Origin: a virus
Length of the DNA stretch: 20,186 bases
Virus record (IMG/VR): IMGVR_UViG_3300044527_000465
Coordinates: 1 to 20,186 of that record
Reading direction: 5' to 3' (one strand)
Positions 7,634 through 18,260 of this stretch are shown here, one piece after another (within the stretch, counting starts at the first letter, position 1; each line of letters begins with the position of its first letter). Below the pieces are notes generated by a model, which searched no databases, was not told the origin of the DNA, and saw only the letters and a list, made by a program, of their open reading frames with translations. The translations under genes were made by a program, and so were the position numbers.

Positions 7634-7915
7634 ATGCGAGTTCGACTCGGTGGCAAATACTGGACGCTGCGCTTCGCGTCGAACATGAGGGACTTCGGGG
7701 ACATGATCGACCCCGGCAAGGCCGCTGGCCGCCTCATTCGCGTGGCAACCTGGCCGTGTGAGAAGGATCGGATGGACACCACAATCCACGAGGCCATCCA
7801 CGCGATCCGCCCGGAGCTAGACGAGGAGGCCGTGGCATCGACCGCCACCGACATCGCGCACCTTCTGTGGCGGTTGGGATATCGCCGGGTCGTTAACGGC
7901 AAGCCCGTTGAGTAG
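7634..7915 (+). CDS. Small HExxH zinc-peptidase-like protein (93 aa)
   Basis: H52-E53-x-x-H56 (IHEAIHA) with a following acidic pair (ELDEEAV, E64/E65) forms a short zincin-type motif. The C-terminus LWRLGYRRV is typical of a family of small phage putative metallopeptidases. The protein begins two bases after the phosphoesterase stop, so the two are probably co-transcribed. No substrate can be named. The small size suggests a minimal catalytic domain or a non-enzymatic zinc fold. It is the last gene before the long intergenic region. Confidence 0.65.
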   Translation: MRVRLGGKYWTLRFASNMRDFGDMIDPGKAAGRLIRVATWPCEKDRMDTTIHEAIHAIRPELDEEAVASTATDIAHLLWRLGYRRVVNGKPVE

Positions 7916-7924
7916 GGGTACACT

Positions 7925-8090
7925 TGAGCTGCGGTGATGTGGGTGTAGTAGGCCGAAGGCCAAGGCGCGATTCCCACTTGTGCCGGCGCACAAGACCGTA
8001 AGGCACGACCGCCGGCGTATACAGCAATGGGGTAATGAAACCTACCGCCAGGGCAGGGCGCGATGCTGAAAGCACGCGCTGCTGTCCGCT
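7925..8090 (+). ncRNA. Candidate structured RNA between converging signals (no gene)
   Basis: Nested inverted repeats suggest a folded RNA. GTGGG (7939) pairs with CCCAC (7973) around GGCC-GAA-GGCC (7951-7961). CTTGTGC-CGGC-GCACAAG lies at 7977-7994. GCCGGCG (7982) can instead pair with CGCCGGC (8010), giving alternative folds. A long hairpin spans 8051-8087: GGGCAG with CTGTCC, GCGCG with CGCGC and TGCT with AGCA closing a GAA loop, broken only by small bulges. No convincing coding frame covers it. Strand is assumed from the neighbours. No known RNA class is recognised with confidence. Confidence 0.45.
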
Positions 8091-8130
8091 GCATCGAATG
8101 CGTCACAGATGTTCAAATATGTAGCACTTT

Positions 8131-8222
8131 CGTACACGTTATTTGGATGTGTCGATTCCGCGTACACGCGGTTTTCCGGGACCGGAAAAGAACACGGCTC
8201 GGGACTTGCGTCAACCGAGCCG
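8131..8222. promoter_or_regulatory. Operator-like cluster: CGTACACG repeats and palindromes
   Basis: CGTACACG occurs at 8131 and 8161, exactly 30 bases (about three helical turns) apart. A perfect palindrome TTTTCCGGGACCGGAAAA lies at 8172-8189, with 8-bp arms and a GA centre. CGGCTCGG (8195) and CCGAGCCG (8215) form another 8-bp inverted repeat. None is followed by a T-tract, so regulator binding is a better reading than termination. Confidence 0.45.
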
Positions 8223-8241
8223 CGCTTCCGGGGGCTAAATT

Positions 8242-8311
8242 GTCGGGCATAGGCTGCACGCGCAGACTATCGCAAAAACCATCGCCCGACGAGCGCAGGA
8301 TAGTGTATACT
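8242..8311 (+). promoter_or_regulatory. Weak candidate promoter for the replication genes
   Basis: TATACT at 8306-8311 would serve as the -10 for the gene at 8440. No good -35 lies 16-18 bases upstream (CGCCCG region), so an activator would be needed if the promoter is real. GTCGGGC (8242) and GCCCGAC (8284) form a 7-bp inverted repeat just upstream, enclosing a smaller CTGC-ACGC-GCAG hairpin; this may be the control site. Confidence 0.35.
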
Positions 8312-8342
8312 CCGATCCAACGCAACCCGATGTGGGTGGCGA

Positions 8343-8408
8343 GAGCGGCTGGCGCTGCTCAACATCTCGAAAACCGTGGGCGGGGCGGGTCAAGCCCGCC
8401 AGCCGCTC
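8343..8408 (+). promoter_or_regulatory. Leader hairpin before the DUF1376 gene
   Basis: GAGCGGCTGGCG (8343-8354) is perfectly complementary to CGCCAGCCGCTC (8397-8408), twelve base pairs. Inside it GGCGGG and CCCGCC can pair as a competing stem. The structure ends 31 bases before the start codon and would be in the transcript from the -10 at 8306. It could control translation or stabilise the leader; no known riboswitch is recognised. Confidence 0.45.
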
Positions 8409-8439
8409 CCCGCCTCGCCCCGGTCCTATGGGAGTTTCC

Positions 8440-8970
8440 ATGTCCACGCCTTGGTTCCCTTTCTACGCCTCCGACTTCTACGCAAGTACGGCGGCGTGGC
8501 CTCCCGATTGGGTAGGCGGTTACATCCGCCTGCTGTCGTTCGCCTGGATGAACGGCGGCATTCCCAACGACCGCGAGGCCATCAACCGCATTGCTGGCGG
8601 ACTGACCGATGCCGGGTGGATCGCCATTTGCGCCCGTCTGACGCTCGCAGACGGTGACCGTGACGGTGACCGCCACGGTGAGCGTGAGCAAAGGTGGGTG
8701 CATCCGCGCATGGAGCGGGAGCGGGAACGCACCGACACCATCCGCAAGGCGCGCCAGGATGCGGCGGCAGCCACCAATAGGAAGCGACAGGACGGTGACC
8801 GTCACGCTGACCGTACCGCTGACCGCCACGGTGAGCGCACCGCTGACCGGGGCGTAACTACAACCACAACCACAGATATCCAACCCCCCATAGCCCCCCC
8901 TTCAAAGGGGGGGCGGGTTGGTAAGAATCGAAGAGACCGGAACAGAGACCTGAATCAACCGCAATGGTGA
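8440..8970 (+). CDS. DUF1376-type replication-associated protein with charged repeats (176 aa)
   Basis: The N-terminus (WFPFYASDFYAST, then GGYIRLLSFAWMNGGIPND and INRIAGG) matches the DUF1376 domain found at the start of phage replication-initiation proteins. After residue 70 come Asp/Arg/His-rich tetrapeptide repeats (DGDR, HGER, TADR), encoded by 12-bp DNA repeats, an Arg/Glu helix, and a disordered tail with a hexathreonine run. GGGAG five bases before ATG 8440 sets the start; an ATG 12 bases earlier is less well placed. The C-terminal half looks like repeat DNA forced open as coding sequence. A role in replication initiation is inferred from the domain and from the DNA repeats. Confidence 0.7.
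   Translation: MSTPWFPFYASDFYASTAAWPPDWVGGYIRLLSFAWMNGGIPNDREAINRIAGGLTDAGWIAICARLTLADGDRDGDRHGEREQRWVHPRMERERERTDTIRKARQDAAAATNRKRQDGDRHADRTADRHGERTADRGVTTTTTTDIQPPIAPPSKGGRVGKNRRDRNRDLNQPQW
8650..8685 (+). repeat. Iteron-like 12-bp tandem repeats, cluster 1 (3 copies)
   Basis: GACGGTGACCGT, GACGGTGACCGC and CACGGTGAGCGT follow head to tail within the DUF1376 gene. The unit is 12 bp, so it keeps the reading frame (D-G-D-R type tetrapeptides). Confidence 0.8.
8791..8850 (+). repeat. Iteron-like 12-bp tandem repeats, cluster 2 (5 copies)
   Basis: Five head-to-tail copies share the pattern xxCGsTGAsCGn: GACGGTGACCGT, CACGCTGACCGT, ACCGCTGACCGC, CACGGTGAGCGC, ACCGCTGACCGG. The first copy is identical to the first copy of the cluster 130 bases upstream. 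This resembles replication-origin iterons inside an initiator gene, as in lambda O, but the origin function is inference. Confidence 0.8.
8881..8920. repeat. C7/G7 hairpin inside the end of the DUF1376 gene
   Basis: Seven C (8894-8900) and seven G (8907-8913) surround TTCAAA, and outer arms CAACCC/GGGTTG (8881, 8915) extend the pairing. No T-tract follows and 50 coding bases remain, so it is not a normal terminator. It follows the 12-bp repeats and could be part of the same origin-like region. Confidence 0.5.
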
Positions 8971-14850: not shown

Positions 14851-16347
14851 ATGCGAATGGCCGACCCGCAGCACAGCAATCCTCTGATGCCGAACGCCGT
14901 TCCGGGCGCTGGCCTTCCGCCCGCACGACGGCCGCGCAAGCCCCTGCCCGCGCCCACGAGCCGCGGACCCACCGGGCCGCTTGCCCTGCCCGTGGAAGTG
15001 CAGCGGTCGTACTTCCGTACCGCGTCCCTGATGCTGCGAAACAGCAGCCTCGCGTACCGCCTGGATGTGAACTACCAGGCCATGATGCGGATGGACGCGG
15101 ACATCGAAGGTGTCCTGCGCTCCCTCCTCGTCACCCTTGCTGGCCTTGAGTGGTCCGTGACGGCGGACGATGATGACAACCCTCGGACGCAGAAACTCGC
15201 GTCCCGCATTGCCGACATCATCAACGCCATCCCTCGGCGCAGCGACCTGTTCCGCGCCATGCACGAGGCCGTGTGGTACGGCGTGTCCGCGACCAACATC
15301 GTCTACGAGAAGGACGCGAAGCTCGGCGTGCGCGTGGCCGAATGGATTCCGTTCGCCGCTGACACCCTAGCATTCGACCAGCGCGGCAACGTGGCAATGC
15401 GCGTGGGTGCGGCGTACATCAATGAATCGTCGGTGACCGACCTTGGCTTTGACTCGCTCGTCCACCTGTTCGACGAGAACGAGCGACGCGCCATTGTCCT
15501 GCACCGCGTGTTCACGACCGCCCCAAATTTCATCGACCCGAACAGCGCCGACCAGGTCTACCGCGGCGTGGGCGCACGCGATGTGTGCTGGTACATTTGG
15601 CTGCTGAAGCAGGAGATCCTTCAGAACGCCGCTGCCTACGCGGAGCGGTACGCGCTCGGCATCCGGGTGGGCTACTACCCCGCTGGCAACGATGCGGCCA
15701 AGAGCGAGATGCTGACGGTTCTTCAGAACCTCGTCAACGACAATTCCGTGGTGCTGCCGCGTATCGGCCCGAACGAGTCGATGTACGACATCGACATCAA
15801 GGACGCGAACGCGGGCCGCGCTCAAATCTTCATGGAGATGGTCGATTGGTGCAGCAGCAAGCTCAAGGAGGCCATCCTGGGGCAGTCGCTCTCGAGCGAG
15901 GCGGGCAGCACGGGCCTCGGCTCCGGCGTTGCCGACCTTCACGCTGACACCCTGTCCCGCGTGATCCGCTACCACGCGGACGCGCTGGCGGAATCCATCA
16001 CCACCGACCTGGTGCGCGTGGTCGCCAAGATGCTCGGCGCGTCCGATGACGAAGCCCGCGCCATCCGTTTCAACTTCGCCCCGGAGCGCCCGGACACCAA
16101 GGAGCGCCTGGAGGCCGTGGAGAAGTTCGTGGCCCTCGGCGGCCGCGTCAGCGAACGCGAGGTGCGCGACCTCCTCGGCCTTGCCGAACCGATGGACGGC
16201 GAACCCGTCCTCGGTGGCAAGTCGGCCGGCGGGGACAACCCCATTGCAGCCATGCTTGGCATGGGCAACGATGCCCCGGAGGGTGAGGAACCCGCCCCGC
16301 AGGCTCCCAAGGTCGTGGCCGTCCGCAAGCGCAAGCGCAAGGCATGA
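14851..16347 (+). CDS. Portal protein, DUF935 (Mu gp29-like) (498 aa)
   Basis: The portal forms the dodecameric ring at the capsid vertex through which DNA passes. The core has the DUF935 features: YRLDVNYQAMMRMDADIEGV (split from a longer stretch) and LEWSVTADDDD near the N-terminus, HEAVWYGVSATNIVYE, and the signature LGQSLSSEAGSTGLGSGVA at about 343-361. N-terminal Pro-rich and C-terminal Lys/Arg tails are likely disordered. An ATG six bases after the chosen start is an alternative. The stop overlaps the MuF start (ATGA), the usual portal-MuF order. Confidence 0.9.
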   Translation: MRMADPQHSNPLMPNAVPGAGLPPARRPRKPLPAPTSRGPTGPLALPVEVQRSYFRTASLMLRNSSLAYRLDVNYQAMMRMDADIEGVLRSLLVTLAGLEWSVTADDDDNPRTQKLASRIADIINAIPRRSDLFRAMHEAVWYGVSATNIVYEKDAKLGVRVAEWIPFAADTLAFDQRGNVAMRVGAAYINESSVTDLGFDSLVHLFDENERRAIVLHRVFTTAPNFIDPNSADQVYRGVGARDVCWYIWLLKQEILQNAAAYAERYALGIRVGYYPAGNDAAKSEMLTVLQNLVNDNSVVLPRIGPNESMYDIDIKDANAGRAQIFMEMVDWCSSKLKEAILGQSLSSEAGSTGLGSGVADLHADTLSRVIRYHADALAESITTDLVRVVAKMLGASDDEARAIRFNFAPERPDTKERLEAVEKFVALGGRVSEREVRDLLGLAEPMDGEPVLGGKSAGGDNPIAAMLGMGNDAPEGEEPAPQAPKVVAVRKRKRKA

Positions 16348-18260
16348 ACCGCGCCGCGCTAGACAAGCACCTCCGCAGCGTCCTCAAGGAGGCGCAGCAG
16401 GCGTACCGCAAGGGCATCGCAGCCCAGGTACTGGGGGAAACGGGCGCGGAGCATTGGCAGACGTTCCACGAGGCAACGTCGGCCCTTCTGATGGCATCGT
16501 GGCTCTTTGGCGCACGGCAGGCCATCGACAAGGCCAAGATCCCGGACGAGGCCGTGGCGGGGATGCTCGAGGACAACACGGCCCTGACCTTCGACCGCCT
16601 TGAAACGGGCGTTGTGCTGGAGGGGTTCGGCCGCGATTTCCTCGCCCCCATCGCCAACTGGTTCCGCACCCGCGTGCCGATCTCGCGCACGGATTGGGAT
16701 GTGCTGATTGAGGCCGCCCAGCGCAGCGGCGGCGAGGTGGCCGACCACGAGCGCGACAACGCCCTGCCCGATATGCGCGCCCGTAACCCGGTGCTTGATT
16801 CGCTCCTGCGCGGCATCACGGTCAACCCCCAGGGTGGGCAAATCTCCACGGCCAAGCGGATCACGGACGGCACGTTCTTTGTGACCGCCATGAACCCCAA
16901 GCAGACGCGGCAGACGCAGGAGCTGATTGCCCGCGTCATCGAAGAGAAACCCGGCAAGTCCGTGGTGGGCAAGTGGATACGCAAGATGAACCTCGGGGAC
17001 TTCGTGACCACCACGCAGATGGTCACGGGTACGCACCTGACCACGGCGCGGCTTGAGACCGTGCTACGCACGAACACCAACCGGGCGGCCACGGAAGGGC
17101 TTGCGGAGACCCTGCGCGAACCGAAGGTGCAGGCGTTCGTGCCGCTGGTGGAATACAGCGCGACCGGGGACAACCGGACGCGGCCCACGCATCAGGGCTT
17201 GGACGGCTACATCGGCACGATGGAGATGTTCGACCGCCAGGGGATCGCACCGCCGTGCGGATTCAACTGTTTCCCGTCTTGGCAACCTGTTGAGGGGGCC
17301 GTGGACATGGGCTTCCGTACGTCATATTGCGGTGCGCTGGTACACCTCAATACGCGGTCGGGTGGCACTATCGCAGCGACAGCCAATCACCCAATACTGA
17401 CCGACCGGGGATGGATTCCGGCCCACGCTGTCAAGGTTGGCGACAAGATGCTGCGCCGCAGCGTCAAGCCCGTGAACGCGGCGGAAGGACTTGGATACAA
17501 CCAGGGCAACTACTTGCAGCCCACGGCCTTGCAGATATTCAACGCGCTCGCGGCGAAGGCTGTAACCCGTACGACTGTCAGCGCGAAGGCCAACGGCCAT
17601 ATGTTCGATGGCGATGCCATGAGCGCGCATGGCGAAATCGACGTTGTAAGGACCGACCGCGTACTGGTGTTCGATGTGTTCAACGCCCAGGGCGCGAATA
17701 GCCTCCAAGAGCGGCAGCTCGTCGGGGCTGGTCAGCCGAGCCTTGGATTTGGCGCATCGGATCAATTCGTTCATGCTTCGCTTTCGGCCACGAACGGCAG
17801 CCCAAGCCGCCCCGCATTGCCGTTTGACGGCAGCCGGATCTTGCTTGATTCCGCTCCATTTGAGCGTTTCGGCCTCCCCCTGCGTGCGGAGCTTGATGCC
17901 TCGCTTGAGGAGTCGGCGATCAATCGCACCACGAGATACGCCGAGCGATTTGGCGATTTGGTTGGTGCTTTCGCCGGCACGGTAACGCTTGACGATGTTG
18001 TCGATGTCGATGTTGTTTCTAAGTGGGAGGGGCATGTGTATGACTTCCGAAGCAGCAGCGGCATTCTACTCGCTGACGGTTTGATCGTGAGTAATTGCCG
18101 CTGCGCGCTGATACCCGTGCCGGCGGCTCGCGCCCTCGAGCGCGGGTGGACGGATGTGAATGGCAACGTGAACTACGCCGCGCTGAAGCGGCACAACGGG
18201 AAGCGCCAGCAGCTCATCGACACGCGGCAGATTCCCGATCCCGGATTTGTGAATGCATAA
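16344..18260 (+). CDS. MuF-like minor head protein interrupted by an intein (638 aa precursor)
   Basis: MuF-family proteins sit at the portal vertex and help assemble or inject the head. The N-extein (residues 1-308) is helical and ends with the family block RTRPTHQGLDG … PPCGFN; the C-extein (585-638) begins CRCALIPV. Joined, they give the MuF signature PPCGFNCRCALIPV, so the host protein would be 362 residues, a normal size. Residues 309-584 are a Hint intein inserted just before the first Cys of CRC. The start overlaps the portal stop (ATGA). Extein codons are GC-rich at position three (17 of 20 in a sampled stretch); the intein is less so. Splicing is needed for a functional head protein. 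Confidence 0.92.
   Translation: MNRAALDKHLRSVLKEAQQAYRKGIAAQVLGETGAEHWQTFHEATSALLMASWLFGARQAIDKAKIPDEAVAGMLEDNTALTFDRLETGVVLEGFGRDFLAPIANWFRTRVPISRTDWDVLIEAAQRSGGEVADHERDNALPDMRARNPVLDSLLRGITVNPQGGQISTAKRITDGTFFVTAMNPKQTRQTQELIARVIEEKPGKSVVGKWIRKMNLGDFVTTTQMVTGTHLTTARLETVLRTNTNRAATEGLAETLREPKVQAFVPLVEYSATGDNRTRPTHQGLDGYIGTMEMFDRQGIAPPCGFNCFPSWQPVEGAVDMGFRTSYCGALVHLNTRSGGTIAATANHPILTDRGWIPAHAVKVGDKMLRRSVKPVNAAEGLGYNQGNYLQPTALQIFNALAAKAVTRTTVSAKANGHMFDGDAMSAHGEIDVVRTDRVLVFDVFNAQGANSLQERQLVGAGQPSLGFGASDQFVHASLSATNGSPSRPALPFDGSRILLDSAPFERFGLPLRAELDASLEESAINRTTRYAERFGDLVGAFAGTVTLDDVVDVDVVSKWEGHVYDFRSSSGILLADGLIVSNCRCALIPVPAARALERGWTDVNGNVNYAALKRHNGKRQQLIDTRQIPDPGFVNA
17268..18095 (+). mobile_element. 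Hint intein inside the MuF gene (276 aa)
   Basis: The element begins with Cys1 (CFPSW, block A) and has block B as T38-A-N-H41 followed by PILTDRGW. It ends with HVYDF (block F) and ADGLIVSN (block G), then Cys+1 of the C-extein. The last residue is Asn276 as in class 1 inteins, but the residue before it is Ser275 where His is usual, so C-terminal cleavage may be slower or use another residue. The length exceeds that of a mini-intein by about 130 residues. The extra middle has no LAGLIDADG or HNH motif in the sense frame. Instead it overlaps an antisense endonuclease-like ORF. Base composition is less GC-rich at sense third positions than in the exteins. Confidence 0.9.
17322..18035 (-). CDS. 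Antisense homing-endonuclease-like ORF nested in the intein (237 aa)
   Basis: The ORF lies wholly inside the intein on the opposite strand, each codon being the complement of one intein codon. Residues 14-46 form a helix-turn-helix (YRAGESTNQIAKSLGVSRGA, then IDRRLLKRGI). Residues 103-180 resemble a Vsr/DUF559-type nuclease: SPDE with E106, QYAVGPYNVDF with D133, IAIE with E144, and a LQVVALVV strand. The usual GGxxH after the second Glu is not present (HMAVGLRADS), so activity is uncertain. GGAAG lies eight bases before the ATG and TAGAAT (18068-18063) about 27 bases before it. Over the first 60 codons GC is 35, 26 and 42 at positions 1, 2, 3, a coding-like order for this strand. Whether it is expressed is unknown. 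Confidence 0.6.
   Translation of the reverse strand: MPLPLRNNIDIDNIVKRYRAGESTNQIAKSLGVSRGAIDRRLLKRGIKLRTQGEAETLKWSGIKQDPAAVKRQCGAAWAAVRGRKRSMNELIRCAKSKARLTSPDELPLLEAIRALGVEHIEHQYAVGPYNVDFAMRAHGIAIEHMAVGLRADSRTGYSLRRERVEYLQGRGLQVVALVVSKSFRRVHGLDAAAQHLVANLDSVGRNPSPVGQYWVIGCRCDSATRPRIEVYQRTAI

Follow-up and report, generated by a model that had tools for sequence, protein, structure and literature searches.

A new structured RNA family with a four-way junction and a 3′ hairpin in an uncultured phage group

The DNA analyzed here, referred to in full as the window, is a 20,186-base IMG/VR virus record. Between two of its gene groups lies a region of about 157 bases whose plus strand (positions 7931–8087) is, as judged by comparison with related sequences, under selection for a fold consisting of a closing helix P1, a four-way junction, and the hairpin P5. 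The same comparison shows the element to be genuine and to represent a new family of structured RNAs in an uncultured phage group. A first-pass annotation of the window had proposed a new structured RNA, possibly a phage small RNA, at this place, and the covariation, strand, and promoter data discussed below support that proposal. The reading that we favor is that of a discrete, trans-acting, protein-binding phage RNA, to which we assign a probability of roughly 0.55. The more specific idea, that this is a new phage RNA class confined to a single large group of uncultured phages and acting in trans on host machinery through an invariant apex in P3, is tentative and falls somewhat short of even odds.

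Organization of the RNA element

The junction is formed by P1 together with P2, a composite arm Px–P3, and P4, and P5 follows on the 3′ side (Table 1). The element lies in what had been described as a 524-base gene-free region, and positions 7916–8439 are indeed empty in a coding-potential gene call. The long hairpin with G-U pairs reported at 8051–8087 is present, with GCU-GAA-AGC as its inner tip. Two mutually exclusive pairings had also been noted near position 7982. Both can be traced in the sequence, a CTTGTGC/GCACAAG hairpin (7977–7994) and the pairing of GCCGGCG (7982–7988) with CGCCGGC (8010–8016); the latter, which is P3, is the conserved one.

Among homologues, Px occurs as UUGC/GCAA, AUGC/GCAU, UCGG/CCGA, and AAGG/CCUU, and the variable regions of the RNA are P2 and the tip of P5. 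The apical part of P3 is nearly invariant and reads CANAAG-GCC-GNRA-GGU-ACGNC. It is here that conservation of unpaired bases is concentrated, the invariant ones being C7989, A7992, A7993, A8005-C8006-G8007, and C8009. Sarcin-ricin and k-turn motifs were considered for this apex by eye, and their strand order does not fit.

Table 1. Positions of the RNA element, its helices, and neighboring features in the window
Feature	Position	Strand	Basis or remark
HExxH protein gene, left neighbor	7634..7915	+	codon-model gene call; no Pfam match
-10 box TACACT	7919..7924	+	-12 to -7 relative to predicted start G7931
Conserved RNA element, P1 through P5 (predicted transcript)	7931..8087	+	cmsearch with model R2, 130.3 bits, E 2.7e-28; covariation
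P1, 5′ strand	7931..7934	+	pairs with 8045-8048; GC to AU at pair 7934-8045, three independent times
P2	7939-7943 with 7973-7977 (span 7939..7977)	+	variable loop; two-sided change in 3/5 pairs
Px, 5′ strand	7978..7981	+	pairs with 8024-8027; 92.9% paired; returned unaided by RNAalifold
P3	7982-7988 with 8010-8016 (span 7982..8016)	+	two-sided change in 6/7 pairs
P3 apical domain, invariant	7989-8009	+	contains CC-GNRA-GG at 7996-8003
Px, 3′ strand	8024..8027	+	changes in the alignment and RNAalifold
P4	8030-8033 with 8040-8043 (span 8030..8043)	+	GC to UA and UA to CG changes; 100% paired
P1, 3′ strand	8045..8048	+	comparative alignment, RNAalifold
P5, 3′ hairpin	8051-8062 with 8075-8087 (span 8051..8087)	+	G8081 bulged; two-sided change in 9/12 pairs
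-10 box TATACT of the rightward-block promoter	8306..8311	+	relatives compared
Pseudoknot in the leader of the gene at 8440 (second conserved RNA)	8343..8420	+	helix A 8343-8352/8399-8408; helix B 8378-8389/8409-8420
DUF1376/primosomal-type gene, first on the right	8440..8970	+	gene call, domain match

Comparative evidence for the fold and its strand

RNAalifold, run on a MAFFT alignment of eight sequences (A2) that had been aligned without any fitting to structure, returned the complete fold, with 42 pairs, 17 of which showed compensatory change. A larger alignment (A4) of 60 distinct sequences was fitted to an earlier covariance model without Px, and although that model had no Px, the helix became visible in A4 with changes of its own. 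Over the 60 sequences and 38 pairs, 98.4% of the pair cells hold standard pairs vs 76.8 ± 0.6% in shuffles, while controls in which one strand was slid gave 40 to 49%. The covariation score for the same sequences is 0.555 compared with 0.168 ± 0.008 in shuffles. Since shuffles take no account of kinship, we added a tree-aware test whose null lets each column evolve independently along the same tree. The covariation in related phages that the first-pass annotation had named as a check proved strong: 87 independent two-sided changes on the tree are spread over 25 of the 38 pairs, and six column pairs score above the 95% family-wise maximum of the tree-aware null, all of them inside the structure and none outside it. 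Mean pairwise identity is 57% among 25 non-redundant sequences. Moreover, the pair cells include 184 G-U and just 3 A-C combinations, so the plus strand is the one that folds.

Folding of single sequences is not significant. Stability does not rise above that of shuffled sequences (z = -1.16 on the plus strand and -1.41 on the minus strand), and the minimum-energy fold of the window contains just 12 of the 38 conserved pairs; the case for the RNA rests on comparison. A protein-coding reading was rejected. No reading frame is kept across the homologues: their length differences are not multiples of three, and every one of the six frames is interrupted by stops in a share of them.

Distribution in uncultured viruses

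About 90 loci were collected from IMG/VR by searches with two proteins, HExxH and metallophosphoesterase, and in relatives among them a block at about 7969–8089 recurs at differing distances from the HExxH gene. Patterns from the conserved core of this block retrieved additional contigs, and matches were confirmed with covariance models (R1, later R2). Confirmation was obtained for 65 of 86 flank-derived loci, 54 of 54 loci from the first pattern, each of the 48 new viral loci that were examined for the second pattern, the one match in a cellular genome, 19 more loci, and 46 of 62 matches from two further patterns. The other 16 of those 62 were chance by the covariance model, with no score falling between 18 and 99 bits; as chance matches exist, pattern matches alone were never counted.

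By our own count from the match tables, the carriers comprise at least 160 uncultured viral contigs, and whole records contain exactly one copy in 41 of 43 cases and none in two. This breadth, with nearly always a single copy, makes the RNA likely to be a core function of its phage group. Among cultured phages, DNA and protein searches turned up nothing related to the region or to the HExxH protein, and RNA searches of cultured phages and plasmids returned T-arm or short chance matches only. A pattern search of cellular genomes from 84,980 species matched a single contig, which is phage-like, 3.4 kb long, and assigned to a Nocardiaceae metagenome-assembled genome (L145, JAJFUQ010000015.1). The RNA is surrounded there by the phage neighbors c4, c11, and c3, and none of 197 other genomes of the same class carries it according to the covariance model; the contig is probably of phage origin and binned with that genome.

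The Rfam covariance-model search that had been suggested matched no family. With Rfam 15 there is no match at the gathering score, relaxed matches over the RNA are at chance level, and the versions from L050, L051, and L145 likewise have no match. ARAGORN detects neither a tRNA nor a tmRNA at the RNA, and the open-access literature searched contains no description of it.

Predicted start, promoter, and 3′ end

In 25 of 25 non-redundant homologues, a -10 box is found at an exact distance from P1. Its consensus is TATACT-like (T24 A25 T18 A18 C18 T25 at -12 to -7), the six bases separating it from the start vary in sequence and are fixed in length, the start base G is invariant, and position -1 is a pyrimidine. 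No -35 element is conserved upstream in these 25 sequences. Given the fixed position of the box, the RNA should begin at the first base of P1, and it is strongly indicated by the sequences that transcription starts at G7931 from a promoter of its own. The promoter at 8306–8311 is also of the TATACT-like -10 type with no evident -35, the absence being established as conserved for the box at 7919–7924 only. This common design hints at a shared activator or an unusual use of sigma factors.

In the 3′ flanks compared, no U-tract follows P5 and no conserved terminator lies downstream of it. A terminator-like hairpin with a T-run, located 81 bases after the RNA in the window and in L005, is not conserved. 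We infer that the 3′ end of the transcript coincides with the end of P5 or lies shortly beyond it, and because no U-tract is present there, this end is perhaps made by trimming.

An inverted repeat occurs soon after P5, at 8101–8126 in the window (GCTACAnATGTTCAAATATGTAGC type) and as TAGTCA N10 TGACTA at the same place in other relatives; by its sequence, it looks like the DNA site of a regulator. In two related phages (L219 and L221), a segment of about 33 bases bounded by a palindrome (GCATAAA...TTTATGC) lies just after P5 in opposite orientations, as if it had been flipped.

Gene neighborhood and the leader of the rightward block

The recognizable genes of the window are those of a tailed phage and encode a RecT-like annealing protein, a RusA-like resolvase, a cytosine methyltransferase, an exonuclease-like metallophosphoesterase, a DUF1376/primosomal protein, and a large terminase. 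Judged by eye, the frame next after the portal gene (16344–18260) appears to contain an intein, with a Hint-like block, TANHPILTDRGW, and the ending VSNC.

The RNA is situated between leftward and rightward gene blocks and points toward the rightward block in every locus sampled. Its left neighbor is the HExxH gene in the window and c33, c14, or the divergent gene c4 elsewhere, c4 having its start codon about 20 to 25 bases from the predicted RNA start in most relatives. On the right it is followed by c17 (DUF1376), c11, or c59, or by a gene on the opposite strand (c33, c65, or a gene in L223). In six loci (L087, L081, L097, L102, L127, and L075), a convergent c33 has its stop just a few bases away from P5; in L049–L051, a gene begins about 20 to 27 bases after P5. 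The gene c33 (L087, L097, L127) is an accessory PAPS-reductase-like gene whose best PADLOC match is SspD, and phages differ in the side of the RNA on which it is inserted.

The rightward block has a promoter and a leader of its own (Table 1). The leader forms an H-type pseudoknot of 22 pairs that are 96.7% paired in 15 sequences, with two-sided change in seven pairs and a covariation score of 0.261 vs 0.131 ± 0.013. Its first strand can alternatively make a local hairpin, GAGCGG/CYGYTC. As this hairpin is paired in 15 of 15 sequences, the leader may, judging by sequence, be a two-state switch.

Possible functions of the RNA

In the model that we favor, the RNA would be transcribed from its own -10 promoter, beginning with the first base of P1, and would finish with P5 or shortly beyond it, perhaps through trimming. 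The junction would display the nearly invariant P3 apex as a putative binding site for a host or phage protein, with P2 and the tip of P5 free to vary. The RNA would then work in trans and would serve takeover or gene control and not one neighboring gene; in the more specific and less probable idea named at the outset, its target would be host machinery, of which RNA polymerase, the ribosome, and defense systems are examples. The position between leftward and rightward blocks suggests such a role, and the varied neighbors, together with the promoter and leader of the rightward block, argue for, without proving, a separate transcription unit as opposed to the leader of one gene. Against a discrete RNA stand its unvarying direction toward the rightward block, as a leader would also have, the gene start just past P5 in L049–L051, and the lack of a conserved terminator. 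The shared position could also simply be inherited synteny.

The RNA might instead be a cis-acting leader that mediates put-like processive antitermination, in which the 5′ end of a transcript modifies RNA polymerase for the rightward block. Such a role would accord with the start of the fold at the predicted first transcribed base, the constant orientation, the lack of a U-tract after P5, the terminator-like site in the window and L005, and the precedent of HK022 putL, which acts in this way without a dedicated protein partner (PMC9378689). However, the rightward block comes with a separate promoter and leader, about ten of the sampled loci have a convergent gene as the next one, and the terminator-like site is not conserved. 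Moreover, put RNAs are about 70 nt long with two stem-loops (PMC9378689), whereas the present RNA is a 157-nt four-way junction. We regard antitermination as unlikely.

It is less probable still that the RNA is connected with a replication origin, as a transcript priming or regulating replication begun in the intergenic region. The switch between leftward and rightward genes is near, the element lies ahead of the primosomal-type DUF1376 gene, and many relatives have inverted repeats after P5; however, that gene is displaced or replaced in some relatives (e.g., L222), and the fold has no primer-like feature. A part in the particle or the packaging motor, like that of phi29 pRNA, is very improbable. 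One copy per phage, a compact junction, and a phage-only distribution would fit it, but the neighbors are replication-type genes and not packaging genes, the contigs have an ordinary large terminase, and the Rfam models give no match.

We attach even less weight to the RNA being, on the minus strand, a riboswitch-like leader of the leftward c4 gene. The short distance to the c4 start codon in most relatives would suit such a leader, but the ratio of G-U to A-C combinations contradicts it in favor of a plus-strand fold, and c4 is not beside the RNA in the window, L005, L011, L018, L049–L051, L055, L087, or L222. A guide-type RNA (an omega RNA of IscB/TnpB, or its remnant), for which a resemblance to CGTAAGGC in the first-pass annotation is the sole argument, has a negligible chance: that stretch is the CC-GNRA-GG tip of P3, the TnpB domain PF07282 is found in 0 of 39 carrier contigs with a control that rang in 6 of 14, and a predicted start fixed at P1 leaves no space for a 5′ guide. 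The IscB domain PF14239 was found in 0 of 30 contigs in a search whose positive control also rang nowhere.

Comparison with known systems

Elaborate conserved folds are known in few phage RNAs, and the studied examples, put RNA and pRNA, uncovered unexpected control of polymerase or packaging. For the present RNA, direct tests have become possible now that a fold, a covariance model, and a predicted start site are available.

The host-polymerase-binding RNAs, such as 6S RNA, are comparable as small RNAs, and the present one could likewise act on host machinery in trans. However, 6S RNA is one long bulged hairpin, and the present RNA matches no Rfam family, whether at gathering or at relaxed thresholds. 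The omega RNAs of IscB/TnpB (HEARO) are also GC-rich multi-stem RNAs within mobile DNA; here, in contrast, no linked TnpB-type gene was found, there is no 5′ guide space, and Rfam gives no match.

The put RNAs of HK022 (putL and putR) are cis-acting, present in two copies, and built of two stem-loops in about 70 nt near the 5′ end (PMC9378689). The present RNA resembles them in being a structured phage RNA, in its predicted place near the transcript's 5′ end, and in having no dedicated protein gene beside it; it differs in its 157-nt length, its four-way junction, its single copy, and the separate promoter of the rightward block, and thus does not have the form that defines put RNA. The phi29 pRNA is likewise a small phage-only junction RNA. 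It is built on a three-way junction and belongs to phi29-type podophages (PMC5340915), whereas the RNA at 7931–8087 has four arms at its junction and is without an Rfam match.

Finally, the RNA shares a four-way junction with tRNA, and P2 of L050 and L051 has the sequence of a tRNA T-arm. However, P1 is just 4 bp long, the arms differ in order and length, P5 is an extra hairpin, and ARAGORN gives no match. A T-loop-like UUCGAAU loop is seen in P2 of short-loop relatives (L050, L051, L018, and L140), and other short-loop lineages have a T-loop-like seven-base loop in P2. This likeness may point to a T-loop tertiary contact or to an origin in a fragment of tRNA.
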